Shown here: positions 2,636 through 23,707 of the stretch, piece by piece | How the letters are laid out: each line of letters opens with the position of its first letter | Position numbering within the stretch: the stretch's first letter is position 1 | Source: a virus | Virus record (IMG/VR): IMGVR_UViG_3300030331_002948 | Span: 1 to 41,006 of that record | Length of the DNA: 41,006 bases | Strand: one strand, 5' to 3' | Translations under genes and position numbers: made by a program | The notes under the pieces: model-generated | The model's input: the letters and a program-made list of their open reading frames with translations, nothing else | Database searches by the model: none | Told to the model about the DNA's origin: nothing

Positions 2636-2860
2636 ATGGATATACGAAAAATATCTATCGGCCCAGATTATAAAAATAATTCAATGCATTATTTAGTGGG
2701 ACAAGATGTGTTGGCAGGTAAATATAAAATACATTTAATACAATATGATATTGACTCAAAGTCTATTAAAATATGGATTGAAAGATTAGATGAAGTATTA
2801 TTGTGGAAAGAGTTTACTGCCACTATGCCTATATCTATCGAGTATAATATTAATTTTTAA
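2636..2860 (+). CDS. Hypothetical 74-residue protein
   Basis: A small soluble protein beginning MDIRKISIGPDYKNNSMHYL, mostly alternating hydrophobic and polar residues that suggest a small beta-rich fold (VGQDVLAGKYKIHLIQYD...). No known motif. The start is preceded by the AT-rich leader taaatttaatcta rather than a Shine-Dalgarno site. Its stop codon overlaps the start of the next gene (TAATG), so it is probably co-translated with the GroES-like protein at 2860. I believe homologues occur upstream of terminase genes in marine flavobacterial phages, which would fit a role in head assembly or packaging, but this is recollection and not evidence of function. Confidence 0.7.
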   Translation: MDIRKISIGPDYKNNSMHYLVGQDVLAGKYKIHLIQYDIDSKSIKIWIERLDEVLLWKEFTATMPISIEYNINF

Positions 2861-3423
2861 TGAGATCAATACATTATTTTATTGTAAAGCCTGTAAATAA
2901 CAAAAGATATAATAACACCACTAACATTGAGGGAGTTGACTTTATAACTAGTGTTTCCCAGGAAAATCATTTAGCCTCTAATCGTGAGGCACGAGTTATT
3001 TCTACCCCATTACTTTACAAAGGACCTATAAAAACAGGAGATGTATTATTAGTGCATCACAATGTTTTTAAGTATTATTACGATATGAAAGGAAGGCAAA
3101 AAAGCAGTATGAGTTTTTTTCAAGATGATATTTTTTTTGTTGAACTAGACCAGTTTTTTATGTACAAACAAAACAACAAATGGAATTGTCACGATAGGTA
3201 TTGCTTTATCAAACCCATAAACAAAGAAGATGGATATTTAGTCAAGAGCTTTAAAGAGGAGCCTTTAGTTGGAATAGTTAAATATACAAACGAGTACCTT
3301 AAAAATCAAAACGTGAAAGAAGGGGACAAGGTGGTTTTCAAACCAGAAAGTGAATATGAGTTTAACGTCGACGGTGAAAAATTATACAGGATGTATGACC
3401 ATCAAATAACAGTGGTATTGTAG
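2860..3423 (+). CDS. GroES-like (cochaperonin-fold) protein, apparently tandem
   Basis: A 187-residue protein with two segments that read like the beta-barrel core of GroES/Cpn10. The second half is clearer: GIVKYTNEYL, then VKEGDKVVFKP (about 152-162), then FNVDGEKLYRMYDHQITVVL (168-187). This parallels the GroES order of VxxGDxVxF, an acidic loop, xxDGEEYLI and xxxDILAVI. The first half has IKTGDVLLVHHNVF (57-70) and FFQDDIFFVELDQFF (86-100), a more diverged copy. Phages such as T4 (gp31) encode their own cochaperonins to fold capsid protein with host GroEL. The position just ahead of packaging and head genes fits that role. No mobile loop with a GroEL-binding hydrophobic tripeptide was confidently located, so chaperone activity is inference. 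Confidence 0.5.
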   Translation: MRSIHYFIVKPVNNKRYNNTTNIEGVDFITSVSQENHLASNREARVISTPLLYKGPIKTGDVLLVHHNVFKYYYDMKGRQKSSMSFFQDDIFFVELDQFFMYKQNNKWNCHDRYCFIKPINKEDGYLVKSFKEEPLVGIVKYTNEYLKNQNVKEGDKVVFKPESEYEFNVDGEKLYRMYDHQITVVL

Positions 3424-9587: not shown

Positions 9588-11045
9588 ATGCCAGGACAAG
9601 TTAAATCCGTACCTACTTTCGCGTTGACTCCGAGTTCTGAAAGAACTCCATCAACCGAAAACTACATAACTAATTTCGACTTTTTGAATCAGTATCTACC
9701 TGATACTTATGAAAAAGAGTTCGAGCGTTATGGAAATAGAACTATCTCATCCTTCCTAAGAATGGTTGGAGCTGAGATGCCTACCAACTCTGACCTTATC
9801 AAATGGGCTGAGCAAGGTAGATTACATACTAAATATACATCTGTCGGAACAGCTGCACTATTAAATGCTGATACTGCAACATTCCAAGTAAATGATACAT
9901 TAGACCCTACCGCAGCAGAGCAAGTAGTGAGAGTTGGTCAAACTATCGTTGCTGTACAAAATGATGGCTCAGGTCTTAACAAGGCTGTAGTAACTGCCGT
10001 TAACAATGCAGCGGGTGGTAGAGGTCAATTCGATGTTGCTTTCTACGAAGCTGGTGGTTTAGTAACTGCTGGATCAGGAGTTGGTAACGCTGACATGACA
10101 GTATTTATATATGGTTCAGAATTTAGAAAAGGGACAGCCGGAATGGTTGGTTCACTAGAATCTAATGACTTCATCTTTGAAAACAAACCTATCATTATCA
10201 AAGATACTTACACAGTATCTGGTTCTGATATGGCACAAATCGGTTGGGTTGAAATCACAACTGAAGATGGAGCAACTGGATATCTATGGTATCTAAAATC
10301 TGAGCATGAAACAAGATTAAGATTTGATGATTATTTAGAAACAGCAATGATTGAAGCTGTGCCCGCAGAGACTAACTCTGGTGCTGCTGCCTCTTTAGGT
10401 AGCTCAGGTGCTGCTGCAAATCCAGGCGCTGGTTCAGACGGTATCTTCTATTCAGTTTCTCAAAGAGGAAACATTTGGGATGGTGGAAACCCAACTACAT
10501 TATCAGACTTTGATTCTATTATCAGTAGATTAGACAAGCAAGGTGCTATCGAAGAGAATGTATTATTTGTCGACAGACAATTTGCATTTGATATTGATGA
10601 TATGCTAGCTGCTCAAAATGCTTATGGAGCAGGCGGTACTTCTTACGGTCTATTTGATAATGATGAAGAGATGGCTCTTAATCTAGGATTCTCAGGATTT
10701 AGAAGAGGTTATGACTTCTACAAAACTGATTGGAAATATCTAAACGATCCTACAATGAGAGGTGGTCTTCCAACTGGAGCTGGTTCAGGTCGTATCAACG
10801 GTCTATTAGTTCCTGCTGGATCAACTAGTGTTTATGACCAAATTCTTGGTAAAAATGCTAAGAGACCTTTCCTACATGTACGTTATAGAGCTTCAGAAAC
10901 TGAAGACAGACGTTACAAAACTTGGATAACTGGATCTGCTGGTGGCGCTGCTACAACAGATATAGATAACATGCAAGTTAACTTCTTGTCAGAAAGAGCT
11001 GTTTGTACCATGGGTGCTAACAACTTCTTCTTATTTCAAGAATAA
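9588..11045 (+). CDS. Major capsid protein
   Basis: A 485-residue protein downstream of the scaffold-like gene and followed by a strong terminator, as expected for the most expressed late gene. The N-terminal segment with NFDFLNQYLPDTYEKEFERY and IKWAEQGRLHTKY resembles capsid proteins of flavobacterial podoviruses and crAss-like relatives (HK97 fold expected). A Gly/Ala/Ser linker (AAASLGSSGAAANPGAG, about residues 264-280) interrupts the middle and may be a loop or the edge of an inserted domain. Codon choice in this gene looks more regular (gct, ggt, aga repeated) than in its neighbours, consistent with high expression. No delta-domain cleavage site was identified. Confidence 0.9.
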   Translation: MPGQVKSVPTFALTPSSERTPSTENYITNFDFLNQYLPDTYEKEFERYGNRTISSFLRMVGAEMPTNSDLIKWAEQGRLHTKYTSVGTAALLNADTATFQVNDTLDPTAAEQVVRVGQTIVAVQNDGSGLNKAVVTAVNNAAGGRGQFDVAFYEAGGLVTAGSGVGNADMTVFIYGSEFRKGTAGMVGSLESNDFIFENKPIIIKDTYTVSGSDMAQIGWVEITTEDGATGYLWYLKSEHETRLRFDDYLETAMIEAVPAETNSGAAASLGSSGAAANPGAGSDGIFYSVSQRGNIWDGGNPTTLSDFDSIISRLDKQGAIEENVLFVDRQFAFDIDDMLAAQNAYGAGGTSYGLFDNDEEMALNLGFSGFRRGYDFYKTDWKYLNDPTMRGGLPTGAGSGRINGLLVPAGSTSVYDQILGKNAKRPFLHVRYRASETEDRRYKTWITGSAGGAATTDIDNMQVNFLSERAVCTMGANNFFLFQE

Positions 11046-11887: not shown

Positions 11888-11895
11888 TATCTTTG
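11888..11895 (+). promoter_or_regulatory. Bacteroidetes-type -7 element (TATCTTTG)
   Basis: An exact TAnnTTTG match in the gap upstream of the gene at 11926 (30 bases before its ATG). No good -33 TTG at 17-23 bases upstream. Confidence 0.6.
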
Positions 11896-13927: not shown

Positions 13928-15010
13928 ATGGCAAGGACTCAAAGAAATTTTGTATTAGGGCGAATGAACAAAAGCCTTGACGAAAGGCTTCTTCGTAATG
14001 GAGAATATGTAGATGCCCTTAATGTCCGTTTGGGCTCTACGGAAGAGTCTGAAGTAGGTTCGGTAGAAAACACAAAAGGAAATACACAGCTTAGTGAGTT
14101 ATACTTTATAGAGCCAGGGACGACAAACTCAATTTCTTTAAGTGACCGAGCTAGAACTATAGGTGTTTATGAAGACGGTGCTAATGAAACAATTTATTGG
14201 TTTGTTCATGACCCCGCGTTTAGTGTAGGCAGCACAGGTAAATTAGACATGATATTATCTTTTAATTCACTTACGGGAGAAATAATATATCATATAATTA
14301 GTATAGACGACGGCGGTGGTATAAATACAACTTTAAACTTTAATCCTCAGTTTTTAATAACAGGCACAAACAAGGTGGGTGATTTGTTATTTTTTACAGA
14401 CTTTTTAAATCCACCACGATTTATTAACGTAAAAAAATCTTATGGGGAACCTGAAGTAGCTACTCCTGTTACCCCTACAGGCGAAGTTGTATTTAGTTTC
14501 ACAGCTGGATCAATAACAAATAGCGGAATAACACGCGTAGGATTTCTACAAGGTTTAGTTCCAGGATGTCCTACACCTCTAATTGCAGTAGGAGCAGGAG
14601 CTGCGCCTACTACCACACAAATAAATCTACCTGGTACAGGATGTTACAACACTATTGTAAACGCTATATCGGTAAACGCTGTTAAGACAACTAGGGGATT
14701 TGGAATCATAGGAGCAAACAGCTTGAGCACTTTGGCCCTTATCGAGTTTAATGAAATATTTGGAGTTGTAAATACCATAAAACTAGGTTTAATTACAGCT
14801 GATGGAACAGGGAACCCTGGTTCAGGAATCTTAAGTGGGAATATTACGGGTAGTGATGGTTCTAGTGGCACTTATTATTCTAGATATGAGCCGAACCCTA
14901 CGCAGTTTACGGACGATAATGGCAGTGCTTTTAATCCTTCTAGCTCTGGAACAGTGAGTTTGATTGGACTTACTTTAACAGATGGTGTAACCTATACTTT
15001 AACAATATAA
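13928..15010 (+). CDS. N-terminal part of split tail hub protein, with inserted domain
   Basis: A 360-residue protein. Residues 1-170 (FVLGRMNKSLDERLLRNGEY; DALNVRLGSTEESEVGSVEN; ETIYWFVHDP; LLFFTDFLNPPRFINVKKSY) match the beginning of a large tail hub or stabilisation protein that I recall as one long chain in related phages. Residues about 175-360 are Gly/Thr/Ser/Pro-rich and beta-like, probably an added Ig- or lectin-like domain. The expected continuation (FSAEDILVIKKPP) starts in the next gene only 1 base after this stop and in another frame. It is therefore either a genuine two-piece protein or the product of an insertion. Function: part of the tail between neck and receptor-binding proteins. 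Confidence 0.7.
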   Translation: MARTQRNFVLGRMNKSLDERLLRNGEYVDALNVRLGSTEESEVGSVENTKGNTQLSELYFIEPGTTNSISLSDRARTIGVYEDGANETIYWFVHDPAFSVGSTGKLDMILSFNSLTGEIIYHIISIDDGGGINTTLNFNPQFLITGTNKVGDLLFFTDFLNPPRFINVKKSYGEPEVATPVTPTGEVVFSFTAGSITNSGITRVGFLQGLVPGCPTPLIAVGAGAAPTTTQINLPGTGCYNTIVNAISVNAVKTTRGFGIIGANSLSTLALIEFNEIFGVVNTIKLGLITADGTGNPGSGILSGNITGSDGSSGTYYSRYEPNPTQFTDDNGSAFNPSSSGTVSLIGLTLTDGVTYTLTI

Positions 15011-15011
15011 T

Positions 15012-18000
15012 ATGTCATATACTGATACATTTAGCGCTGAAGATATACTGGTTATAAAAAAACCACCTATTGCTGCGCCTACAATCGCAACAAGAAAAGT
15101 GCCAAATGGAAGCACTTTTTTGCAGGATAGATTCGTTTGCTTTGCTTATAGGTATGAATACGAAAACGGAGAGTTTTCAGCTACATCGCAATTTAGTGAG
15201 CCTGCATTTTCGGCAGGGATTTACACTTTTAGTCAGTCTAGTTTTTTGAATGAAGGAATGTTAAACGAGATTAATGAAGTTGACATTACTTTCAATACAG
15301 GTGGTGAATTAGTTAAAGGAATACAGCTTTTATATAAAGATATGAATGACCCTACTATCAAGGTCATTGAAACCTTAAATAAAGCTAACGATGGTCTTCC
15401 CAATTCAGGGGATTTTACTTATACCTTTAATGACCAAAAAATATTTACTGTACTTCCTGAGTCTGAAATTTTAAGACTATATGATAATGTTCCTCTAAAA
15501 GCTCAGGCGCAAACATTGATGGGAAATCGTTTAATATACGGCAACTATTTTGAAGGATATAATTTAAAAGATAGGCAAAATAGAGCGGTAAATTTTACTT
15601 ACAATGTTAATATAGAAAATCAAGAGTTTGACCAAATAGACATCTCTGATAGAACAGGTGACGGTAACTTTACCTACGGACAAACAGGAAATGTAGATAA
15701 CTCAATATTTATAATTGATTTAGGAAATAATGTATTAAGCAAAGGATCTGTAATATCGTGGGAGTTTACTTTTCAACACTCATCTTTCTATAGCTCATCA
15801 GGTGCTGCCCCTACCGAGCTTACTAGTGGTGTAACGGTAGGGTTTAACTACACACTTAACAGAGATTATGATACGGTTTACGACTTGGCTACTGATGCAA
15901 CTGATGGAGGATTTATAAATGCAATAGGGACTGCTTCAAACATACAAACTGTTACAAATTCATGTAATGGGTTTACATTTACCGATGAATTTAACTGCAA
16001 GATTCCATCAACTTTAAGCTCTTTTGCAAAAACTAATAGCGGCATAACTGGTGCAGGACAGCCCATCGCTATATCTGCATTTAGTGGACCTGAGAACTCT
16101 ACTATAGGCTTACAGCTTCTAGCTATGCAATGGGTCGATGGGGTAAACACCACATACGAATATTTTCAGGTTACTTCAGGTAATGCTTTTTTTACTACCT
16201 CAACCGATAATTATAGTTTACATAGCAACAGAGATTATGAAATAGGTATAATTTATATGGATGATTTTAACCGATCATCTACCGCTTTAGTAAGCCCATT
16301 TAACACAGCACATATTAGCTGTGGAGATTCAAGGTTCGTAAATAAATTAACTGTTAACATCCCTGGTGGTCAAGCTGGGGGAGCTCCTGCTCAAGTTGCT
16401 CCCTTTTGGGCCACTAGATATAAGTTTTGTATAAAATCTAGTAAGTCCACATACGAAACAATATACGTGTCTACCTTTGTACAAGAAGACAATGAGTCCT
16501 CTGTTTATTTTTTACTACAAGGAGAAAACGCAAACAAAGTTGAAGAAGGAGACAGGTTAATTGTAAAAAGAGACAGCTCAGGTGCATTGCCTGTATGCGC
16601 TGAAGCAGTGGTATTAGAAAAAAGCACACAGCTAAAAGGTTTTATTAGTTACACTAATCCTTTGGATAGCACAGACACTATACAAGCACCAGCTGGAGTG
16701 TACATGAAAATGATACCTACAAATTTTGCTGTAAATACATTGGCTAATTCTTTTATTACATACGGTAATTTATCAGACGAATCAGTAAGAACTGGAAATA
16801 ATCCTAGAGTATTTTACCCTGTAACTGTAATAAACCCAACAGGCTCAGGAGCAACCGCAAATATTGATTACTCCCTTCCAGTGGGTAGTACAGTTAATAT
16901 TAGAATAAGTGGCGAGAGACCAGGGGGGAAGGCTGATGCACCTTGTGAAAATCAATTATGGACCTACGAGCAAGAATTTACTGTAGATACTGAATATTCA
17001 AATTTTAAAGAATTTTTTGATAATGAGGGGTTAGGCACATCAGTCACGGGTGCAATACAAAAAAACTCTAGTTTTGTTCAAGGAAGGCCGTCTCAAAACA
17101 GAAGTTTCGATTCGGGGACTAATATAATTTATAATAATACTTTGTCTAGTAGTGCGTCAGATCCTACTTCTTCATCATTAAGCGCAGGTGATACTGTTTT
17201 TTATATGCAGTTTTTTAAAAACACTAGCACAGGTAAAACTTTTTTAGGTGTTAGTGGAGGACGAAATTGCGCTGGTCGAGATAATCCAAGATTAGATGTG
17301 GATATTGAAGTAGTAAGAGCTACTGCTTCAATTGTTTTTGAAACTAAACCAGCTGACGCTTTGCCAGATGTGTGGTTTGAAAACAACGAATCTTTTTCTA
17401 TAGACGCTTTAGGTCAGCACGCTGGTAACATTCAAAACCAAATTGTTGATTTTAACAATGCGGGTGTAATAGCTCGAGATGCTGTTATCGAAACTAACTT
17501 TTCTAACTGTATATCATTTGGAAACGGAATAGAAAGTTTTAAAATTAGGGATGCAGTAAATGGAAGAAATTTAGAGTTTGGAAATAGAGTTACTTCTACC
17601 TCTTCTCAAATGTACAAAGAGGCTCATCGGTTTGCGGACTTAACATACAGCGGTGTGTTTAATGACGAAACCAATGTTAATAAACTTAATGAATTTAATT
17701 TGGGCCTAGCTAACTTCAGCCCTCTTGAAGATTCTTTTGGACCTATTAGAAAATTATATTCAAGACGAACAGATATATTAACCCTTCAAGAAGATAAAAT
17801 TTCTTATGTTCCTGTAGGAAAAGATTTACTTACAGATGCCGCAGGTGGTGGCACATTAACTAGTGTACCTCAAGTGCTTGGTGTTCAAATTGCAAGAGAG
17901 GAAGAATATGGTATAAGTAACAATCCAGAAAGCTTTGCTGTATGGGGATACGATAAATACTTTGTTGATGCAAAAAGAGGAGCTGTGATTAGGTTAACTG

Positions 18001-19667
18001 GCGGAGGCAGCTCGCAAGAGCAATTAACGGTGATATCTCAAGCGGGGATGCGTTCATGGTTTAGAGACTTTTTTATTAATTCTTTGGGCACACAAAAACT
18101 AGGAGGGTATGACCCTTATATGAATGAGTTCGTACTAGCAGGAAATTTACAAAATACTTTTGATTTCTCATCTTGTCTAGCCTGTGATGTATCCGAAAAT
18201 TTATTAGTTATCCCTGGACAAAGAAACATGTATTGTGTTAATTTAGGTCAAAATGTAGGTCAAGTTACTGTTTCTTATATTATACCAGGGGCAACTTCTA
18301 ATGATATAATTACTGAAGTTAACACACCTTCAGGCGCGGGATTACAGGAAATGGAAACTGAAGCTGGTGTTTCCCCTATAGTAACTGAGCAAACAAACTC
18401 TGGTGTAGGGTATACTATTAGTGCATATTATAACAATGTAAAATATACTAGCGGTCTTGTTTATGTAAGCGGAAGTTTTACCTTTAACAAAAATTTAGTC
18501 GATACTTTTGAAACCACAATTGAAGCCTCAACATCTTCAACCGTTTCAGATACAATAGAAGTAACTGTAAGCTGTCCAGTTCAAACATCAATTACAGTAT
18601 ATAACATCGCTCTCACAAACAGCTCAGATGCTTTAAAAACTATTCATAATGAATATAGGTGGACAGATAATGTAAGCAGCTCTCCACTACAGTCTAATTT
18701 AGTCGAGTTTGGCAGCGGAACTAATCCGGTTGTTTCTCAGTATATAACTTCAACTGGGTCATTAGGCTCAAATGTAGTTCCTAGTGAAGGTGCGTTGGTG
18801 TCTATTATTAGCAAGAAATTTTCTTCTGATACTTTTGATTTCAACGATCAAACTAATAAACTAAGATACTTAAGAAGCGCTACAGTATATAGCAACACCA
18901 CTGCTGATATAGATGCCCTTATAGCTGCTTCAGCTGAGGCAACTCCGCTTCAAGTAGAGGGAGAGAGCAATTTTGCTACTTTTACCATGCCTAGTGGTAC
19001 AGCGAGTGAAAATAATTTGTATTTAATTTGGGATTATAGAACTATTACTCAAAGCGTTCTTTGTCAAGACACAACAGCTACAGCTATTAATGCTCAGTAC
19101 AATTCATGTTGTAATTGTACAAACCCTCCAACGGCTCAATATTCGTGCGGATCAAATCCAATAGGCTTTGCTCAAGGAGGTGGAGCTTATCCACAAGAAA
19201 AAACATTTAACATAGGATCGGGCACTGGAACAGTAGAAGTTGAATTTAATGCTTTTGATGAACCTGACCGAATGATAGTTGAGTTTGATGGAGCAGTTGT
19301 TATAGACACACAATATGTAGGAGATTCAAGAAAAATTACTAACCCAGGGGCAGCTCCTGCTGACTTCTTCTTGTCTTCCGAGTTATCAGGAAATAATCCT
19401 GATACAGGGGCTCCATATATAGAACCAATATCAGGATTAGCTTATGAGCCTAACGGAGCAGCGCCGTTACCCACAATAGAGAACGGAGGCTTTGTTGCTG
19501 AAAGATTAGTTGGTGCTCCAGGGTTTGAAAAGCTAGAAACCACCAAAGACACGTGGCAAACTTATTCATTTACAAAAAGCACCGCAACACCTACAGTAAC
19601 AGTTAAAGTTTTTGCTCCTATTCGTACTAGCACCGCGTGGCAATTAAAAGTAAAATGTGTAACTTAA
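15012..19667 (+). CDS. Large tail hub protein, C-terminal part (1551 residues)
   Basis: Begins MSYTDTFSAEDILVIKKPPI, a sequence that in related phages lies inside one protein with the upstream gene. It continues with a conserved region (FVCFAYRYEYENGEFSATSQ; EVDITFNTGG; RLIYGNYFEGYN). The middle is a long beta-rich body with a conserved block around residues 900-1070 (RADLTYSG-like, FSPLEDSFGPIRKLYSRRTD, QEDKISYVPVGKD, WFRDFFI). Near the C-terminus there is a CNCTNPP/SCGS cysteine cluster, then a beta-sandwich (FNIGSGTGTVEVEFNAFDEP; RMIVEFDGAVVIDTQYVGDS) resembling carbohydrate-binding or PPC-like modules. It likely forms the tail body and contacts the host surface. Its frame closes upstream at 15000-15002, so the ATG at 15012 is the only sensible start. 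Confidence 0.8.
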   Translation: MSYTDTFSAEDILVIKKPPIAAPTIATRKVPNGSTFLQDRFVCFAYRYEYENGEFSATSQFSEPAFSAGIYTFSQSSFLNEGMLNEINEVDITFNTGGELVKGIQLLYKDMNDPTIKVIETLNKANDGLPNSGDFTYTFNDQKIFTVLPESEILRLYDNVPLKAQAQTLMGNRLIYGNYFEGYNLKDRQNRAVNFTYNVNIENQEFDQIDISDRTGDGNFTYGQTGNVDNSIFIIDLGNNVLSKGSVISWEFTFQHSSFYSSSGAAPTELTSGVTVGFNYTLNRDYDTVYDLATDATDGGFINAIGTASNIQTVTNSCNGFTFTDEFNCKIPSTLSSFAKTNSGITGAGQPIAISAFSGPENSTIGLQLLAMQWVDGVNTTYEYFQVTSGNAFFTTSTDNYSLHSNRDYEIGIIYMDDFNRSSTALVSPFNTAHISCGDSRFVNKLTVNIPGGQAGGAPAQVAPFWATRYKFCIKSSKSTYETIYVSTFVQEDNESSVYFLLQGENANKVEEGDRLIVKRDSSGALPVCAEAVVLEKSTQLKGFISYTNPLDSTDTIQAPAGVYMKMIPTNFAVNTLANSFITYGNLSDESVRTGNNPRVFYPVTVINPTGSGATANIDYSLPVGSTVNIRISGERPGGKADAPCENQLWTYEQEFTVDTEYSNFKEFFDNEGLGTSVTGAIQKNSSFVQGRPSQNRSFDSGTNIIYNNTLSSSASDPTSSSLSAGDTVFYMQFFKNTSTGKTFLGVSGGRNCAGRDNPRLDVDIEVVRATASIVFETKPADALPDVWFENNESFSIDALGQHAGNIQNQIVDFNNAGVIARDAVIETNFSNCISFGNGIESFKIRDAVNGRNLEFGNRVTSTSSQMYKEAHRFADLTYSGVFNDETNVNKLNEFNLGLANFSPLEDSFGPIRKLYSRRTDILTLQEDKISYVPVGKDLLTDAAGGGTLTSVPQVLGVQIAREEEYGISNNPESFAVWGYDKYFVDAKRGAVIRLTGGGSSQEQLTVISQAGMRSWFRDFFINSLGTQKLGGYDPYMNEFVLAGNLQNTFDFSSCLACDVSENLLVIPGQRNMYCVNLGQNVGQVTVSYIIPGATSNDIITEVNTPSGAGLQEMETEAGVSPIVTEQTNSGVGYTISAYYNNVKYTSGLVYVSGSFTFNKNLVDTFETTIEASTSSTVSDTIEVTVSCPVQTSITVYNIALTNSSDALKTIHNEYRWTDNVSSSPLQSNLVEFGSGTNPVVSQYITSTGSLGSNVVPSEGALVSIISKKFSSDTFDFNDQTNKLRYLRSATVYSNTTADIDALIAASAEATPLQVEGESNFATFTMPSGTASENNLYLIWDYRTITQSVLCQDTTATAINAQYNSCCNCTNPPTAQYSCGSNPIGFAQGGGAYPQEKTFNIGSGTGTVEVEFNAFDEPDRMIVEFDGAVVIDTQYVGDSRKITNPGAAPADFFLSSELSGNNPDTGAPYIEPISGLAYEPNGAAPLPTIENGGFVAERLVGAPGFEKLETTKDTWQTYSFTKSTATPTVTVKVFAPIRTSTAWQLKVKCVT

Positions 19668-19676
19668 ATTTTAATT

Positions 19677-20993
19677 ATGGCAGAAGTAAATGTATTTATT
19701 GACGGTGTAAATTTAGCAGATGCGACGGCTGTGTATACAGATTCTAGTTTGACAACTTTAGCAGCGGATGCTTATTATTCAGATTTGTCTATAACAAGAC
19801 AACAATTAAACGGGAAGCTTGGTTCAATAATTACTTGCCCCTCTTGCTCGGGATCGCCTGCAACTCCTACAACGTCCACTGTCACACAAACCGTAACCAA
19901 TAATATCAGTGGAGGCACTTTAGGGGTTGACTATACTTTGTCAGGCTCTGGATATGACGGAGGTGACCCTCCTGGGCCTGTGACGCAATCTCAAGTTACT
20001 GACTACCCTTTTGACTTTACGATTACCGCTACCCCCGCAGCTGGAAAAGAATTTGATTCAGACGCACCATTTACTGCTACAAATCCCGCGGGATCCATAC
20101 CTGATGGTGGGGGAACAGTGAATAATACATTAACGGGTACAATTATTACTTCTCCCTCTACTGTTGCGGGTCAATACTATTTGTTACAAGCCTGTTTAAC
20201 TGGCGCACAAGCTTCAGCAGGCGGCTTAGAGGGTCCTGGAAACGCATACATTTATTTAAGCGCAGCACCAGCGAACGGTCAAAGATATGTTACCACTAAT
20301 ACTAGACTACCAGAGTTTTATTATTTTTTACCAAGCTCAGCCCCTTTAGATACTTTGGCAAATAGAACTGAACCTGAATTTAAACCGAGCAGTTCGGCAC
20401 CCACGCCAGGTAATTTACAGGTTGATGAAATACCAGGGGAATCATTCTGTCCCAAAGCTCAAACCAATTTGACAAAAGAATTTATTTATGAGCTAAGAAA
20501 CTGTAACACGAACTCCATTGGTCAATATTTTAAATCGCCTACACAACAAGAAATAAGCACTAGAGTGGTAGACGATGCAGGAGACACTTTTATAATAGAG
20601 CAGTTACTTTTAGAGGGTCAAGAGGTTGGACTAACTGAAAAACAAGGTGTGCTTCTAGTTGACATAGATGGAGTTACTTCTAGTAGCACTAATTTTACTG
20701 GAGCTGTGCAAGGCTGTCCTCCTCAAAATGTTCTTTTAAGATTTTGTGGTTCAGTTCCAGGTACATCTTTATTAGGTCTTAGTTTAGCCGTTGCTAAGCA
20801 AGCTCCTAATGACCCTATATTTACTAATGGACTGCTTGGCGAGGTATATTTAGATAGTGAAGGCGCGTGTTGGGTTGTTCAATTACTAACCGAATCTGGA
20901 AATCAAATAGGAAAAGGTATACCGCCAAGAAATTTAAAACAACATATAAGTGGCGGTTGTCAAGCTTGTACTAGCGGAGGCTCTTATAGTTAA
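19677..20993 (+). CDS. Tail fibre/receptor-binding candidate with CPSC module
   Basis: A 438-residue protein. The N-terminal roughly 60 residues (ATAVYTDSSLTTLAADAYYS... ending ITCPSC) form a small module that I recall as recurring in tail and fibre proteins of flavobacterial phages. Residues 65-155 are Thr/Gly/Pro-rich and Ig-like (PFDFTITATPAAGKEF). The C-terminal half is mixed beta with Cys residues and ends SGGCQACTSGGSYS, a second CxxC. Paired CxxC modules may bind metal or form disulfides outside the cell. It lies directly after the tail hub, with a 9-base gap, so a tip or adsorption role is likely. No enzyme motif is seen. Confidence 0.65.
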   Translation: MAEVNVFIDGVNLADATAVYTDSSLTTLAADAYYSDLSITRQQLNGKLGSIITCPSCSGSPATPTTSTVTQTVTNNISGGTLGVDYTLSGSGYDGGDPPGPVTQSQVTDYPFDFTITATPAAGKEFDSDAPFTATNPAGSIPDGGGTVNNTLTGTIITSPSTVAGQYYLLQACLTGAQASAGGLEGPGNAYIYLSAAPANGQRYVTTNTRLPEFYYFLPSSAPLDTLANRTEPEFKPSSSAPTPGNLQVDEIPGESFCPKAQTNLTKEFIYELRNCNTNSIGQYFKSPTQQEISTRVVDDAGDTFIIEQLLLEGQEVGLTEKQGVLLVDIDGVTSSSTNFTGAVQGCPPQNVLLRFCGSVPGTSLLGLSLAVAKQAPNDPIFTNGLLGEVYLDSEGACWVVQLLTESGNQIGKGIPPRNLKQHISGGCQACTSGGSYS

Positions 20994-21039: not shown

Positions 21040-22263
21040 ATGAATACTATTTTTGTGCAAATCGCGAGCTATCGTGACCCCGAGTTAGTCCCTACAATAA
21101 GAAGTCTTTTAGATAACGCCAAGTATCCTGGTTTATTAACTATATGCATTGCTCATCAATATGACGAAAACGATCAGTGGGATAACTTAGACGAGTTTAA
21201 AAACGACAATAGGTTTATTATAATAGATATACCTCATGACGAATCTAAGGGGACATGCTGGGCTCGATATCAAATACAAAGGTACTATAACAACCAAAAA
21301 TATGCTCTTCAGTTAGACTCACATCATAGGTTTAGTAAAAATTGGGATGAAACGTGCGTGGAGATGTTAAGAAATTTACAGATTGAGGGCAACCCCAAGC
21401 CTGTGCTTACAACCTATCTTCCCTCTTACGACCCAATTGCTGATCCTGAAGAGCGAGTAGAAACGCCTTGGGGAATGTCTTTTGATAAGTTTACGCCTCA
21501 AGGGATGGTTTTTTTTAGACCATATTATATAGAAGAGAAGGCCACTGCCCCAATTCTCGCTAGGTTTTTTTCAGGACATTTTGTCTTTACTCTAGGGAGA
21601 TTTTGTAAAGACGTTCCTTATGACCCTCATTTATATTTTCACGGTGAGGAAATAAGTATGGCAGTCAGAGCTTACACCTCTGGCTTTTCATTATTTCACC
21701 CCCACAAAGTTATAGCTTGGCATGAGTATTCGCGTGAGGGAAGGAAAAAACATTGGGACGATAGTACGGAGTGGTCGGTTTTAGACAACAAAGCTCAGAC
21801 TCGTGTCCGTAACTTGTTAGGCATTGACAACCAAGAGTGCACACCTTGCGTAAAAAAAACATTGCTTGGATATGACGTAGGGAAATGGAGCAGCATTGAA
21901 ACTTATGAAATGTATGCGGGTATAAGTTTTAAAGACCGAACAGTTCAGCAGTCTACATTAGATAACAAACCTCCTGAGTTTAGAGATGAAAAGTATTTAA
22001 GCAACATAAGACATACGATTGTCTTAGAAAGAAAAAAAATACCTAATAAAGGGGTGAAATTTGTAGCAGTAATTTACGAGGATAAAAACGGAGATCAAAT
22101 CAACAGACAAGACTACACACCTGCTCAGATAGCTTCGTTCATTAAAGACAAGCACATAGAAATAAATAGTGAATTTATAGGAAGAGAGCCATATAAATAC
22201 ATAGTTTGGCCTTACAATCAAAAAAACAAATGGGGTAATAAGATAGTTCAGCTAATCTCATAA
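21040..22263 (+). CDS. GlcNAc-transferase-like glycosyltransferase (PF11397-type)
   Basis: A 407-residue protein. IFVQIASYRDPELVPTIRSL (4-23) is the hallmark start of the Skp1-type UDP-GlcNAc transferase family (GT60-like; PF11397). It is followed by GTCWARYQIQ (71-80) and a DxD-type metal site LQLDSHHRF (91-98; D93, H95). Further conserved blocks are ARFFSGHFVFTLG, YDPHLYFHGEE and HPHKVIAWHEYSR. Residues about 270-407 are a separate C-terminal region without a recognised fold. The enzyme should transfer a sugar, likely HexNAc, from a nucleotide sugar. Being embedded in virion genes, and directly before a Thr-Pro-rich structural protein, it may modify virion proteins; host surface modification is the alternative. 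Confidence 0.82.
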   Translation: MNTIFVQIASYRDPELVPTIRSLLDNAKYPGLLTICIAHQYDENDQWDNLDEFKNDNRFIIIDIPHDESKGTCWARYQIQRYYNNQKYALQLDSHHRFSKNWDETCVEMLRNLQIEGNPKPVLTTYLPSYDPIADPEERVETPWGMSFDKFTPQGMVFFRPYYIEEKATAPILARFFSGHFVFTLGRFCKDVPYDPHLYFHGEEISMAVRAYTSGFSLFHPHKVIAWHEYSREGRKKHWDDSTEWSVLDNKAQTRVRNLLGIDNQECTPCVKKTLLGYDVGKWSSIETYEMYAGISFKDRTVQQSTLDNKPPEFRDEKYLSNIRHTIVLERKKIPNKGVKFVAVIYEDKNGDQINRQDYTPAQIASFIKDKHIEINSEFIGREPYKYIVWPYNQKNKWGNKIVQLIS

Positions 22264-22288
22264 AATTATTAGTTACTAAATAAAGTTG

Positions 22289-22296
22289 TAAATTTG
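22289..22296 (+). promoter_or_regulatory. Bacteroidetes-type -7 element (TAAATTTG)
   Basis: An exact TAnnTTTG match in the gap after the glycosyltransferase, 18 bases before the ATG at 22314. Followed by the leader ataatttaaatt. No clear -33 TTG. Confidence 0.55.
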
Positions 22297-22313
22297 TACT
22301 TATAATTTAAATT

Positions 22314-22838
22314 ATGAGCTACTTATCATGTACCGCATCCGTAGGCACAGGTACGTCTGAACCAATTATTACTCAATACTTAGGAGTAGATGGTGTTCGT
22401 TACGATGTTATGAACAGAGAAATAATAGATGTGCCTAATAACTTGGTGCTAAGCGCAGGGCTTACCCCTTATATTCAATCTAATTGGCTTAGCGGCACAG
22501 GAACGGTAACTGGTACGGGTGTAATATTAGATTCTTTGGGTAATGAATATGTAAGATTTTATCCTTCTTCGATAATTACTCCAGCCTTTTCCTTTGGCTC
22601 TCCTCAAGTTTACTACCCCTCAAATCCTGTAACACCTTTGGTAAGCGGTGAGTACACAGTTTTGACATTTGCTTTGACAATTGAAGATCCTGATGGCAGA
22701 ACTAGAGGTAGTTCACAAATATGTATTGGCGGAACAGAAATAACGCCCACGCCTACCCCTACTTTTGTGCCGACCCTTACCCCTACACCAACTCCTGTTC
22801 CTCCTACGCCAACACCCACGGCTACTCCAGTATTGTAA
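22314..22838 (+). CDS. Structural protein with Thr-Pro-rich C-terminal stalk
   Basis: A 174-residue protein. The first roughly 140 residues are beta-rich with Gly/Thr/Val (GVRYDVMNREIIDVPNNLVL; EYTVLTFALTIEDPDGRTRG), suggesting an Ig-like or small head/tail domain. From about residue 144 the chain is almost only Thr and Pro (TPTPTPT, PTPTPVPP, TPTPTATPVL; bases about 22742-22835). Such a tail would be extended, exposed and a good O-glycosylation substrate. It sits 50 bases after the glycosyltransferase and has its own promoter-like element. A virion surface role is inferred; no homologue of known function is recognised. Confidence 0.65.
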   Translation: MSYLSCTASVGTGTSEPIITQYLGVDGVRYDVMNREIIDVPNNLVLSAGLTPYIQSNWLSGTGTVTGTGVILDSLGNEYVRFYPSSIITPAFSFGSPQVYYPSNPVTPLVSGEYTVLTFALTIEDPDGRTRGSSQICIGGTEITPTPTPTFVPTLTPTPTPVPPTPTPTATPVL

Positions 22839-22857: not shown

Positions 22858-22865
22858 TATATTTG
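22858..22865 (+). promoter_or_regulatory. Bacteroidetes-type promoter (TTG-N22-TATATTTG)
   Basis: An exact TAnnTTTG match with a TTG at 22833-22835, giving a 22-base spacer that fits the 17-23 range described for Flavobacterium promoters. It is the best two-part promoter seen on the plus strand. The -7 element is bracketed by TCGTA and TACGA (22855-22859 and 22866-22870 region), a short inverted repeat. Confidence 0.6.
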
Positions 22866-22885: not shown

Positions 22886-23707
22886 ATGGCAGCTATACCC
22901 GCTTCACCAAACCCAGTTGCGCCTCCACAGGCCCCGTCTGGAGAATTATACACTTTAAGTTATAGTAATGGAGTTAGTGGATGGCCTTCATTTTACTCAT
23001 ACCACCCAGATTATATGGTTGGTATGAATAATTATTTTTACACTTTTTCAGGAGGTAATTTATACCGGCACAATACCAACGAAGCTAGAAATAATTTTTA
23101 CGGAGAACAGTTTAATTGTAAAATTACAACAGTTATAAACGACAACCCTCTTGAGAATAAGCTGTTTAAAAACTTAAGCTTAGAATCAGACTCTCCTTGG
23201 AACGTTACTATGAACACAGACATGAATAACACTGCGTTTATAAACAACACATGGTTTGAGCTAAAAGAGGGCGCGTATTATGCAGCTATAAAAAACACAG
23301 CTCAAAGCCCATCTACTTTATCGGATTTTAATTTTCGATCTGTCAATGGTATAGGTAAGACTACAGGATTTACCATGACTAACCCTAGAGTTTTTACATT
23401 TACAGTGCCTATAGATTCAATTATAAGCATTGGCGATTATCTTTACTACCTAAATGAATTTAACAACAGCCCCGCATTAGCTGGTGTAATTACAGCTAAA
23501 GATACTACCACCATAACGGTTGATAGTACAATTAACGGAGCAAGCAACCCGACTACAAACACTCCTTTAATGATGGCTCTGAAAAACACAATAGCTGAAT
23601 CTCACGGAATACTAGGTCATTATACATTAATGACGCTGGAAAACTTAGGTCCGGGTAGAGCAGAACTATTTGCTATTGAATCTCAGTTGATGAAAAGCTA
23701 TCCTTAA
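22886..23707 (+). CDS. Conserved-type virion structural protein
   Basis: A 273-residue protein with a Pro/Ala-rich start (MAAIPASPNPVAPPQAPSGE). A distinctive block follows: YSNGVSGWPSFYSYHPDYMV, GMNNYFYTFSGGNLYRHNTN, and NNFYGEQFNCKITTVINDNP. I recall this WPSFYSYHPDYMIGMNN-type signature from structural proteins of crAss-like and Cellulophaga phages. The C-terminal half (PRVFTFTVPIDSIISIGDYL; TTTITVDSTING) is beta-rich. It is probably a tail or baseplate-like component, since it lies after the tail hub and fibre genes and before the internal proteins. The exact place in the virion is not known. Confidence 0.72.
   Translation: MAAIPASPNPVAPPQAPSGELYTLSYSNGVSGWPSFYSYHPDYMVGMNNYFYTFSGGNLYRHNTNEARNNFYGEQFNCKITTVINDNPLENKLFKNLSLESDSPWNVTMNTDMNNTAFINNTWFELKEGAYYAAIKNTAQSPSTLSDFNFRSVNGIGKTTGFTMTNPRVFTFTVPIDSIISIGDYLYYLNEFNNSPALAGVITAKDTTTITVDSTINGASNPTTNTPLMMALKNTIAESHGILGHYTLMTLENLGPGRAELFAIESQLMKSYP

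Follow-up and report, generated by a model that had tools for sequence, protein, structure and literature searches.

Why would a phage keep a gene for a polypeptide glycosyltransferase directly upstream of a gene whose product ends in a stretch of Thr and Pro? This question is raised by a 41-kb viral fragment of the Bacteroidota-phage type (41,006 nucleotides; the whole stretch of DNA analysed is referred to here as the window). The annotated phages closest to it are those of the Flavobacterium "elemo" type and Cellulophaga phages, e.g., phi13:2, an outgroup to the crassviruses (PMC10172136), and the gene at 9588 gave a weak, subthreshold match to a crAss capsid. Elsewhere in the window, the ORF at positions 2 to 1312 encodes a C-terminal laminin-G/ConA-like lectin domain (PF13385; E = 3e-42) and may specify an adhesin, and the 187-amino-acid product of the ORF at 2860 to 3423 has a Cpn10-like C-terminal segment (PF00166; E = 1.4e-4) and is a possible phage co-chaperonin. 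An initial annotation had proposed that the transferase and its neighbor form a pair with which the phage O-glycosylates its own virion. The features on which this proposal turns are as follows.

21040 to 22263, + strand: predicted GT60-like (PF11397) polypeptide HexNAc-transferase, 407 amino acids, ATG start, with a C-terminal β-rich domain
22314 to 22838, + strand: virion-type protein of 174 amino acids with an N-terminal β-sandwich domain and a C-terminal Thr-Pro stalk (phrog_38031 over residues 11 to 167; E = 1.5e-25)
22740 to 22835, + strand: Thr-Pro stalk, residues 143 to 174, the proposed acceptor segment, from composition and pN versus pS

In a profile search, the product of the gene at 21040 to 22263 matched PF11397 with an E value of 2.8e-75 (254 bits; cutoff, 21), the best stretch covering profile positions 98 to 351 and an N-terminal stretch covering positions 1 to 45, and it matched phrog_24687 (glycosyltransferase) at an E value of 7e-157. 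The family marks that had been pointed out are indeed there: the ORF opens with MNTIFVQIASYRDPELVPTI, and D93-S94-H95 is in place. D93, H95, R97, F98, D103, and H228 are invariant across 31 homologues, and the predicted D-x-H...H metal-site pattern (D93, H95, and H228) is intact. A sequence search of solved structures with this protein returned no match, and a fold search was therefore used. With the AlphaFold model (pLDDT of 85) as the query, all of the top 30 PDB matches were polypeptide GalNAc-transferases (best E = 1e-12; TM score of ~0.5), and the modelled fold is nearest to that of the mucin-type polypeptide GalNAc-transferases, which initiate Thr/Ser O-glycans. The metal-site residue pattern of the GT27 enzymes, which carry out this initiation in animals, is D-x-H...H, the same as that of the window transferase; however, the likeness stops at this TM score and at 11 to 16% identity, and the C-terminal ricin-lectin domain of GT27 was not recognized in the window protein.

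Members of GT60 are polypeptide α-GlcNAc-transferases, whose targets are Thr/Ser residues of mucin domains or the hydroxyproline of Skp1 (PMC3188802, PMC8724618). The window transferase resembles two GT60 enzymes of Dictyostelium, the mucin-type enzyme and Skp1 Gnt1, in its Pfam family, PF11397, and in the D-x-H motif, but it is a phage protein encoded in a tail operon next to the gene for its presumed substrate, carries an extra C-terminal β domain, and has a putative activity. By family likeness, UDP-HexNAc is the putative donor and a polypeptide the putative acceptor. Bacteria with homologues include members of the Bacteroidota, Burkholderia-type bacteria, and Enterobacterales, and hence the PF11397 family is not phage specific.

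The neighboring gene begins 50 bp past the stop codon of the transferase gene and, as had been noted before, is rich in T and P at its end: the final 32 residues are ITPTPTPTFVPTLTPTPTPVPPTPTPTATPVL, with 12 T and 12 P, so that a dense Thr/Ser-Pro domain adjoins a predicted polypeptide HexNAc-transferase. The richest 30-residue stretch of this protein consists of 80% T+P, compared with 43% for the runner-up ORF in the window, and this peak was not reached once when the protein was shuffled 20,000 times. Across six genomes, pS was 0.70 and pN was 0.060 in the Thr-Pro tail, versus 0.71 and 0.217, respectively, in the remainder of the gene. Since pN is far lower in the tail at equal pS, the tail is selected at the protein level, and drift of a DNA microsatellite was ruled out as its origin. 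In the structure model of this protein (pLDDT of 87), the N-terminal domain is a β-sandwich for which the fold matches were only subsignificant (best E = 2e-3).

The position of the two genes within the tail module is given by the features around them.

13928 to 15010, + strand: muzzle N-terminal piece, which assigns the locus to the tail-tip module (crAss_MUZ, PF25731, a weak match at E = 2.4e-6, just below the curated cutoff)
15012 to 19667, + strand: tail (muzzle-type) structural protein (phrog_14478, virion structural protein; E = 5e-190)
19677 to 20993, + strand: upstream structural gene, TP free in the window, with homologues that have (XP)n stalks in many relatives
22289 to 22296, + strand: TAnnTTTG (Bacteroidota-type -7 element) before the stalk gene, TAAATTTG, 25 bp ahead of the ATG, from a consensus match alone
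22858 to 22865, + strand: TAnnTTTG element before the MUZ_C gene, TATATTTG, 28 bp ahead of the ATG, likewise from the consensus
22886 to 23707, + strand: crAss muzzle C-terminal-domain (MUZ_C) protein of the tail tip (PF25729, E = 4.6e-16; phrog_38031 over residues 180 to 460, E = 2.4e-98)

The products of the genes at 22314 and 22886 correspond to the N- and C-terminal halves of one protein (phrog_38031), which is fused in most relatives of the window's clade (the fused homologues are L002, L004, and L019 to L029); the gene fission, with a TAnnTTTG element for each of the two genes, is common to the window and L012 to L018. One protein split by a frameshift or recoding was ruled out: the 22314 gene stops at a TAA codon, the 22886 gene is read in a different frame and is preceded by a TAnnTTTG element of its own, and L012 to L018 are likewise split. 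In the fused relatives, the TP stretch is the linker between the N-terminal domain and the muzzle C-terminal domain, and the stalk thus belongs to a tail-tip-type protein. The pair matches a protein that has the crAss muzzle C-domain and is situated in the tail module, and its products are candidate virion proteins; the 22886 product has approximately 410 relatives in IMG/VR. TAnnTTTG elements at 11888, 12269, 22289, 22858, and 23715 lie 15 to 38 bp ahead of five late-gene starts. In L012, the nearest relative, an ankyrin-repeat ORF (L012:7038-7391) is inserted between the transferase and stalk genes. The muzzle-type protein at 13928 to 19667 is encoded by two genes in the window (360 and 1,551 amino acids) and is a single protein of ~1,470 to 1,620 amino acids in most relatives that lack TP stalks. 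In phi13:2 and MW202828, the two near relatives examined, no glycosyltransferase is annotated in the slot.

It is conceivable that the transferase acts on a virion protein other than the adjoining one, e.g., the product of the gene at 19677 or 15012, since homologues of these proteins bear stalks in many relatives (those of the 15012 product do so in some sister clades). However, the window's own 19677 and 15012 products are TP free, and no stretch encoded in the window other than the 22314 tail is T/P rich; we regard such a target as very improbable.

If the stalk is the substrate of the transferase, the two might be expected to come and go together. Relatives were gathered with three baits, namely, the transferase, the MUZ_C gene, and an oxygenase that adjoins MUZ_C in sister phages, and were dereplicated at 95% of the MUZ_C core, with at least 5 kb of upstream sequence needed, which left 92 loci. 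A T/P-rich stalk and sugar or hydroxylation genes were both present in 44 of the 92 loci and both missing in 48, with no mixed case, and stalk thresholds of 0.45, 0.5, and 0.55 gave an identical table. In this version of the check that the initial annotation had called for (co-occurrence of PF11397 proteins with TP-rich partners), the stalk-enzyme association is complete among MUZ_C-bearing relatives. Loci baited by the neutral MUZ_C gene alone gave the same picture (28 both, 48 neither, none mixed). On the MUZ_C tree, the joint state changes four times, with two of the changes forced by well-supported branches; with only four changes, the 92 loci are not independent observations, and the stalk-enzyme association stands on few independent lineages in the crAss-like group. 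The most telling single case is L231, which is nested in the window's clade (an 18-row branch; SH-aLRT, 99) and has kept the N-terminal domain; both the transferase and a stretch of ~40 TP columns are absent, a joint loss of the two. The cassette-less relatives mostly have a short MUZ_C protein (259 to 288 amino acids) without the N-terminal extension. An exception is L075, a cassette-less locus in which a gene farther downstream encodes an AP/TP-rich segment although the contig has neither PF11397 nor PF13640.

Phage glycosyltransferases often change the host O-antigen, and this frequency lends some weight to a different reading of the locus, in which the enzyme modifies a host surface glycan or some other target, so as to mask receptors or exclude superinfecting phages, the TP stretch serves as a spacer that stays unmodified, and both are cargo of one variable slot. 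The joint presence or absence of the two in 92 of 92 loci, together with the joint loss in L231, argues against it, as do the polypeptide-transferase fold predicted for the enzyme and the strong selective constraint on the stalk sequence itself. Homologues in unrelated phages bear on both sides of the matter. The transferase profile has at least 591 viral relatives, and 53 dereplicated non-crAss loci were sampled from the best 80 of these matches. A joint T and P criterion was used to define a stalk; a count of P alone was dropped because it also picks up bacterial loci with a high GC content. With this criterion, a T- and P-rich segment was found in 26 of the 53 loci, compared with 2 of 39 viral loci picked at random (minimum length, 8 kb; P = 2.7e-6), and several of the T/P partners lie only 21 to 61 bp from the transferase gene. 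Among bacterial transferase loci, 11 of 80 have a T/P segment. The T/P enrichment around the transferase in unrelated phages thus speaks against a host glycan as the target. On the other hand, approximately half of the non-crAss homologues in this sample (53 loci from the best 80 of at least 591 matches) have no T/P partner within 8 kb, which is in keeping with such a target. The same is true of the jumbo phages XacN1 and RAS14 (L092 and L093), in which the PF11397 homologue lies away from recognized tail genes and is followed directly by a carbamoyltransferase gene (annotated in XacN1). Among the isolates in INPHARED, no cultured crAss-like phage has a transferase of the 21040 type, and matches were found only in three Xanthomonas/Stenotrophomonas jumbo phages. 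On balance, we consider a host-glycan role for the window enzyme improbable. The expectation that homologues of the transferase would come with a TP-rich partner is borne out in part: none of the 92 MUZ_C-bearing loci breaks the pairing and 26 of the 53 non-crAss loci have a stalk, but the rest of the latter, about half, do not. The transferase-stalk partnership beyond the tail-tip group is common, not universal.

The other large clade of MUZ_C-bearing phages has a two-domain 2OG-Fe(II) oxygenase in the same slot. In phmmer searches, this protein matched the prolyl 4-hydroxylase (P4H) of B. anthracis at an E value of 7e-24 and that of Chlamydomonas at an E value of 1e-12; across 69 sequences, the Fe ligands of its first domain (H92/D94/H161) do not vary at all, and those of the second domain hardly vary. 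By this likeness, the sister-clade oxygenase is a predicted P4H, with examples in tail loci of marine crAss-like phages at L068:972-2198, L089:3016-4317, and L038:758-1930. Its partners vary and comprise an O-fucosyltransferase (O-FucT) with a carbamoyltransferase, a GDP-mannose dehydratase with a protein resembling hydroxyproline-O-arabinosyltransferase (HPAT; a weak match to the HPAT family, PF23452; E = 1.3e-5, 25.2 bits against a cutoff of 23.9), a PF11397 protein, or uncharacterized proteins. The stalks are kept while the enzymes swap, as expected of a substrate and its interchangeable tailoring enzymes. In L236, L238, L240, L242, and L038, extremely long (VP)n, APTPVPV, and (QP)n stalks lie beside the P4H gene, mostly with HPAT-like genes.

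Which residue would carry the sugar? The stalks are period-two repeats, and the fixation of the X register versus the P register was scored for each locus. In non-crAss GT60 phages, Thr/Ser occupies a median of 0.92 of the X positions and Pro occupies ~0.47 to 0.51 of the P positions (e.g., TPTITPTITP), whereas P4H phages have Pro at 0.78 and Thr/Ser at 0.47, and some of their stalks contain uninterrupted (VP)n or (QP)n runs (VPVPVP and QPQP). The difference between P4H and non-crAss GT60-only loci has a P value of ~5e-10 with loci as units and kinship uncorrected. The fixation of Thr/Ser but not of Pro in non-crAss GT60 phages points to Thr as the acceptor, and the simplest reading is that the acceptor would be Thr where GT60 acts alone and hydroxyproline in phages that have a P4H. 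The window's clade lies in between (Thr/Ser, 0.67; Pro, 0.67), so that both registers are about equally conserved there; Thr is nonetheless the favored candidate for the residue that would bear the sugar in this clade (clade A), since 23 of its records (incomplete records of up to 58.6 kb) yielded no P4H with PF13640 or with a P4H-protein query, the latter run without a positive control. The 2OG-Fe(II) oxygenase was found in neither the window nor the clade-A records and is present only in the sister clades, and no P4H was detected in the 20 records of non-crAss GT60 phages examined, which range up to 223 kb.

These results also qualify the label "Skp1-type" given to the transferase by the initial annotation: the PF11397 family stands, but mucin-type Thr/Ser transferases belong to the same CAZy family, and the hydroxylase that a Skp1-like linkage implies was not among the genes of the window's lineage recovered by these searches. 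A hydroxyproline linkage in the window would have a host enzyme or an unrecognized prolyl hydroxylase act first, followed by the GT60 enzyme in the manner of Skp1 Gnt1, itself a GT60-type enzyme that acts on hydroxyproline; P4H genes in the same slot of sister clades, some of them also with PF11397, lend themselves to this idea. However, the P4H-free records listed above, and the finding that the Thr/Ser register is the conserved one where P4H is absent, make it unlikely, and hydroxyproline chemistry is unsupported for the window.

Taken together, the comparative evidence makes it probable (at roughly 0.77) that the 21040 transferase O-glycosylates the Thr-Pro stalk of the 22314 product as a self-encoded virion module. 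The earlier proposal that the phage decorates its own virion thus gains support from the co-occurrence, the joint loss in L231, the T/P enrichment in non-crAss phages, and the GalNAc-transferase fold; from these, we infer the chemical link, with the stalk as the probable acceptor and GlcNAc, by family analogy, as the putative sugar. Late in infection, the GT60 enzyme would take HexNAc from a host UDP-sugar and transfer it onto Thr residues of the stalk, part of the tail-tip (muzzle) complex, by which a disordered stalk might become a stiff, sugar-coated rod on the virion surface. The benefit, one may speculate, could be rigidity or extension of the stalk, protease resistance, or glycan-mediated attachment; the purposes suggested by the initial annotation, binding of host glycans or evasion of defense, would be just as conjectural. 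In a broader scheme, to which we give slightly better than even odds, marine Bacteroidota phages would have modular stalk glycosylation with two chemistries in one tail-tip slot. These would be a mucin-type chemistry, with GT60 alone acting on Thr, and a plant-like one, with P4H and HPAT-like, fucosyl-, or GT60 transferases acting on hydroxyproline and with carbamoyl- and methyltransferases adding further groups to the glycan. The repeat would record the chemistry, with Thr fixed without the hydroxylase and Pro fixed with it, and the Thr type would recur in unrelated phages.

Virion glycosylation as such is known from mycobacteriophages, whose own glycosyltransferases modify the capsid and the tail tube (Freeman et al. 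2023, as cited in PMC10877033). As far as that citing account goes, other virion proteins and other hosts are concerned there, whereas the window enzyme would act on a dedicated tail-tip stalk of Thr and Pro; the novelty therefore lies in the combination of a mucin-like stalk with a mucin-type transferase at this site. The sister clades, with P4H and HPAT-family genes beside (XP)n stalks of variable X, recall the extensin and arabinogalactan-type hydroxyproline glycosylation of plants and algae (P4H plus HPAT), but this likeness concerns those clades and not the window, is set in a phage context, and includes the weak PF23452 match. Papers on phage PF11397 proteins or on hydroxyproline glycosylation by phages were not found in the open-access literature searched.

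In summary, the locus yields a concrete enzyme-substrate prediction for virion glycosylation in crAss-like tail tips, whose receptor-engaging parts are poorly understood, and the predicted system is compact, consisting of one glycosyltransferase and one 32-residue peptide. The sister lineages hint, in addition, at phage-encoded hydroxyproline glycosylation. Since a T/P or (XP)n stalk can be read from the sequence and is tied to a modification enzyme, glycosylated tails may become predictable in uncultured viruses.
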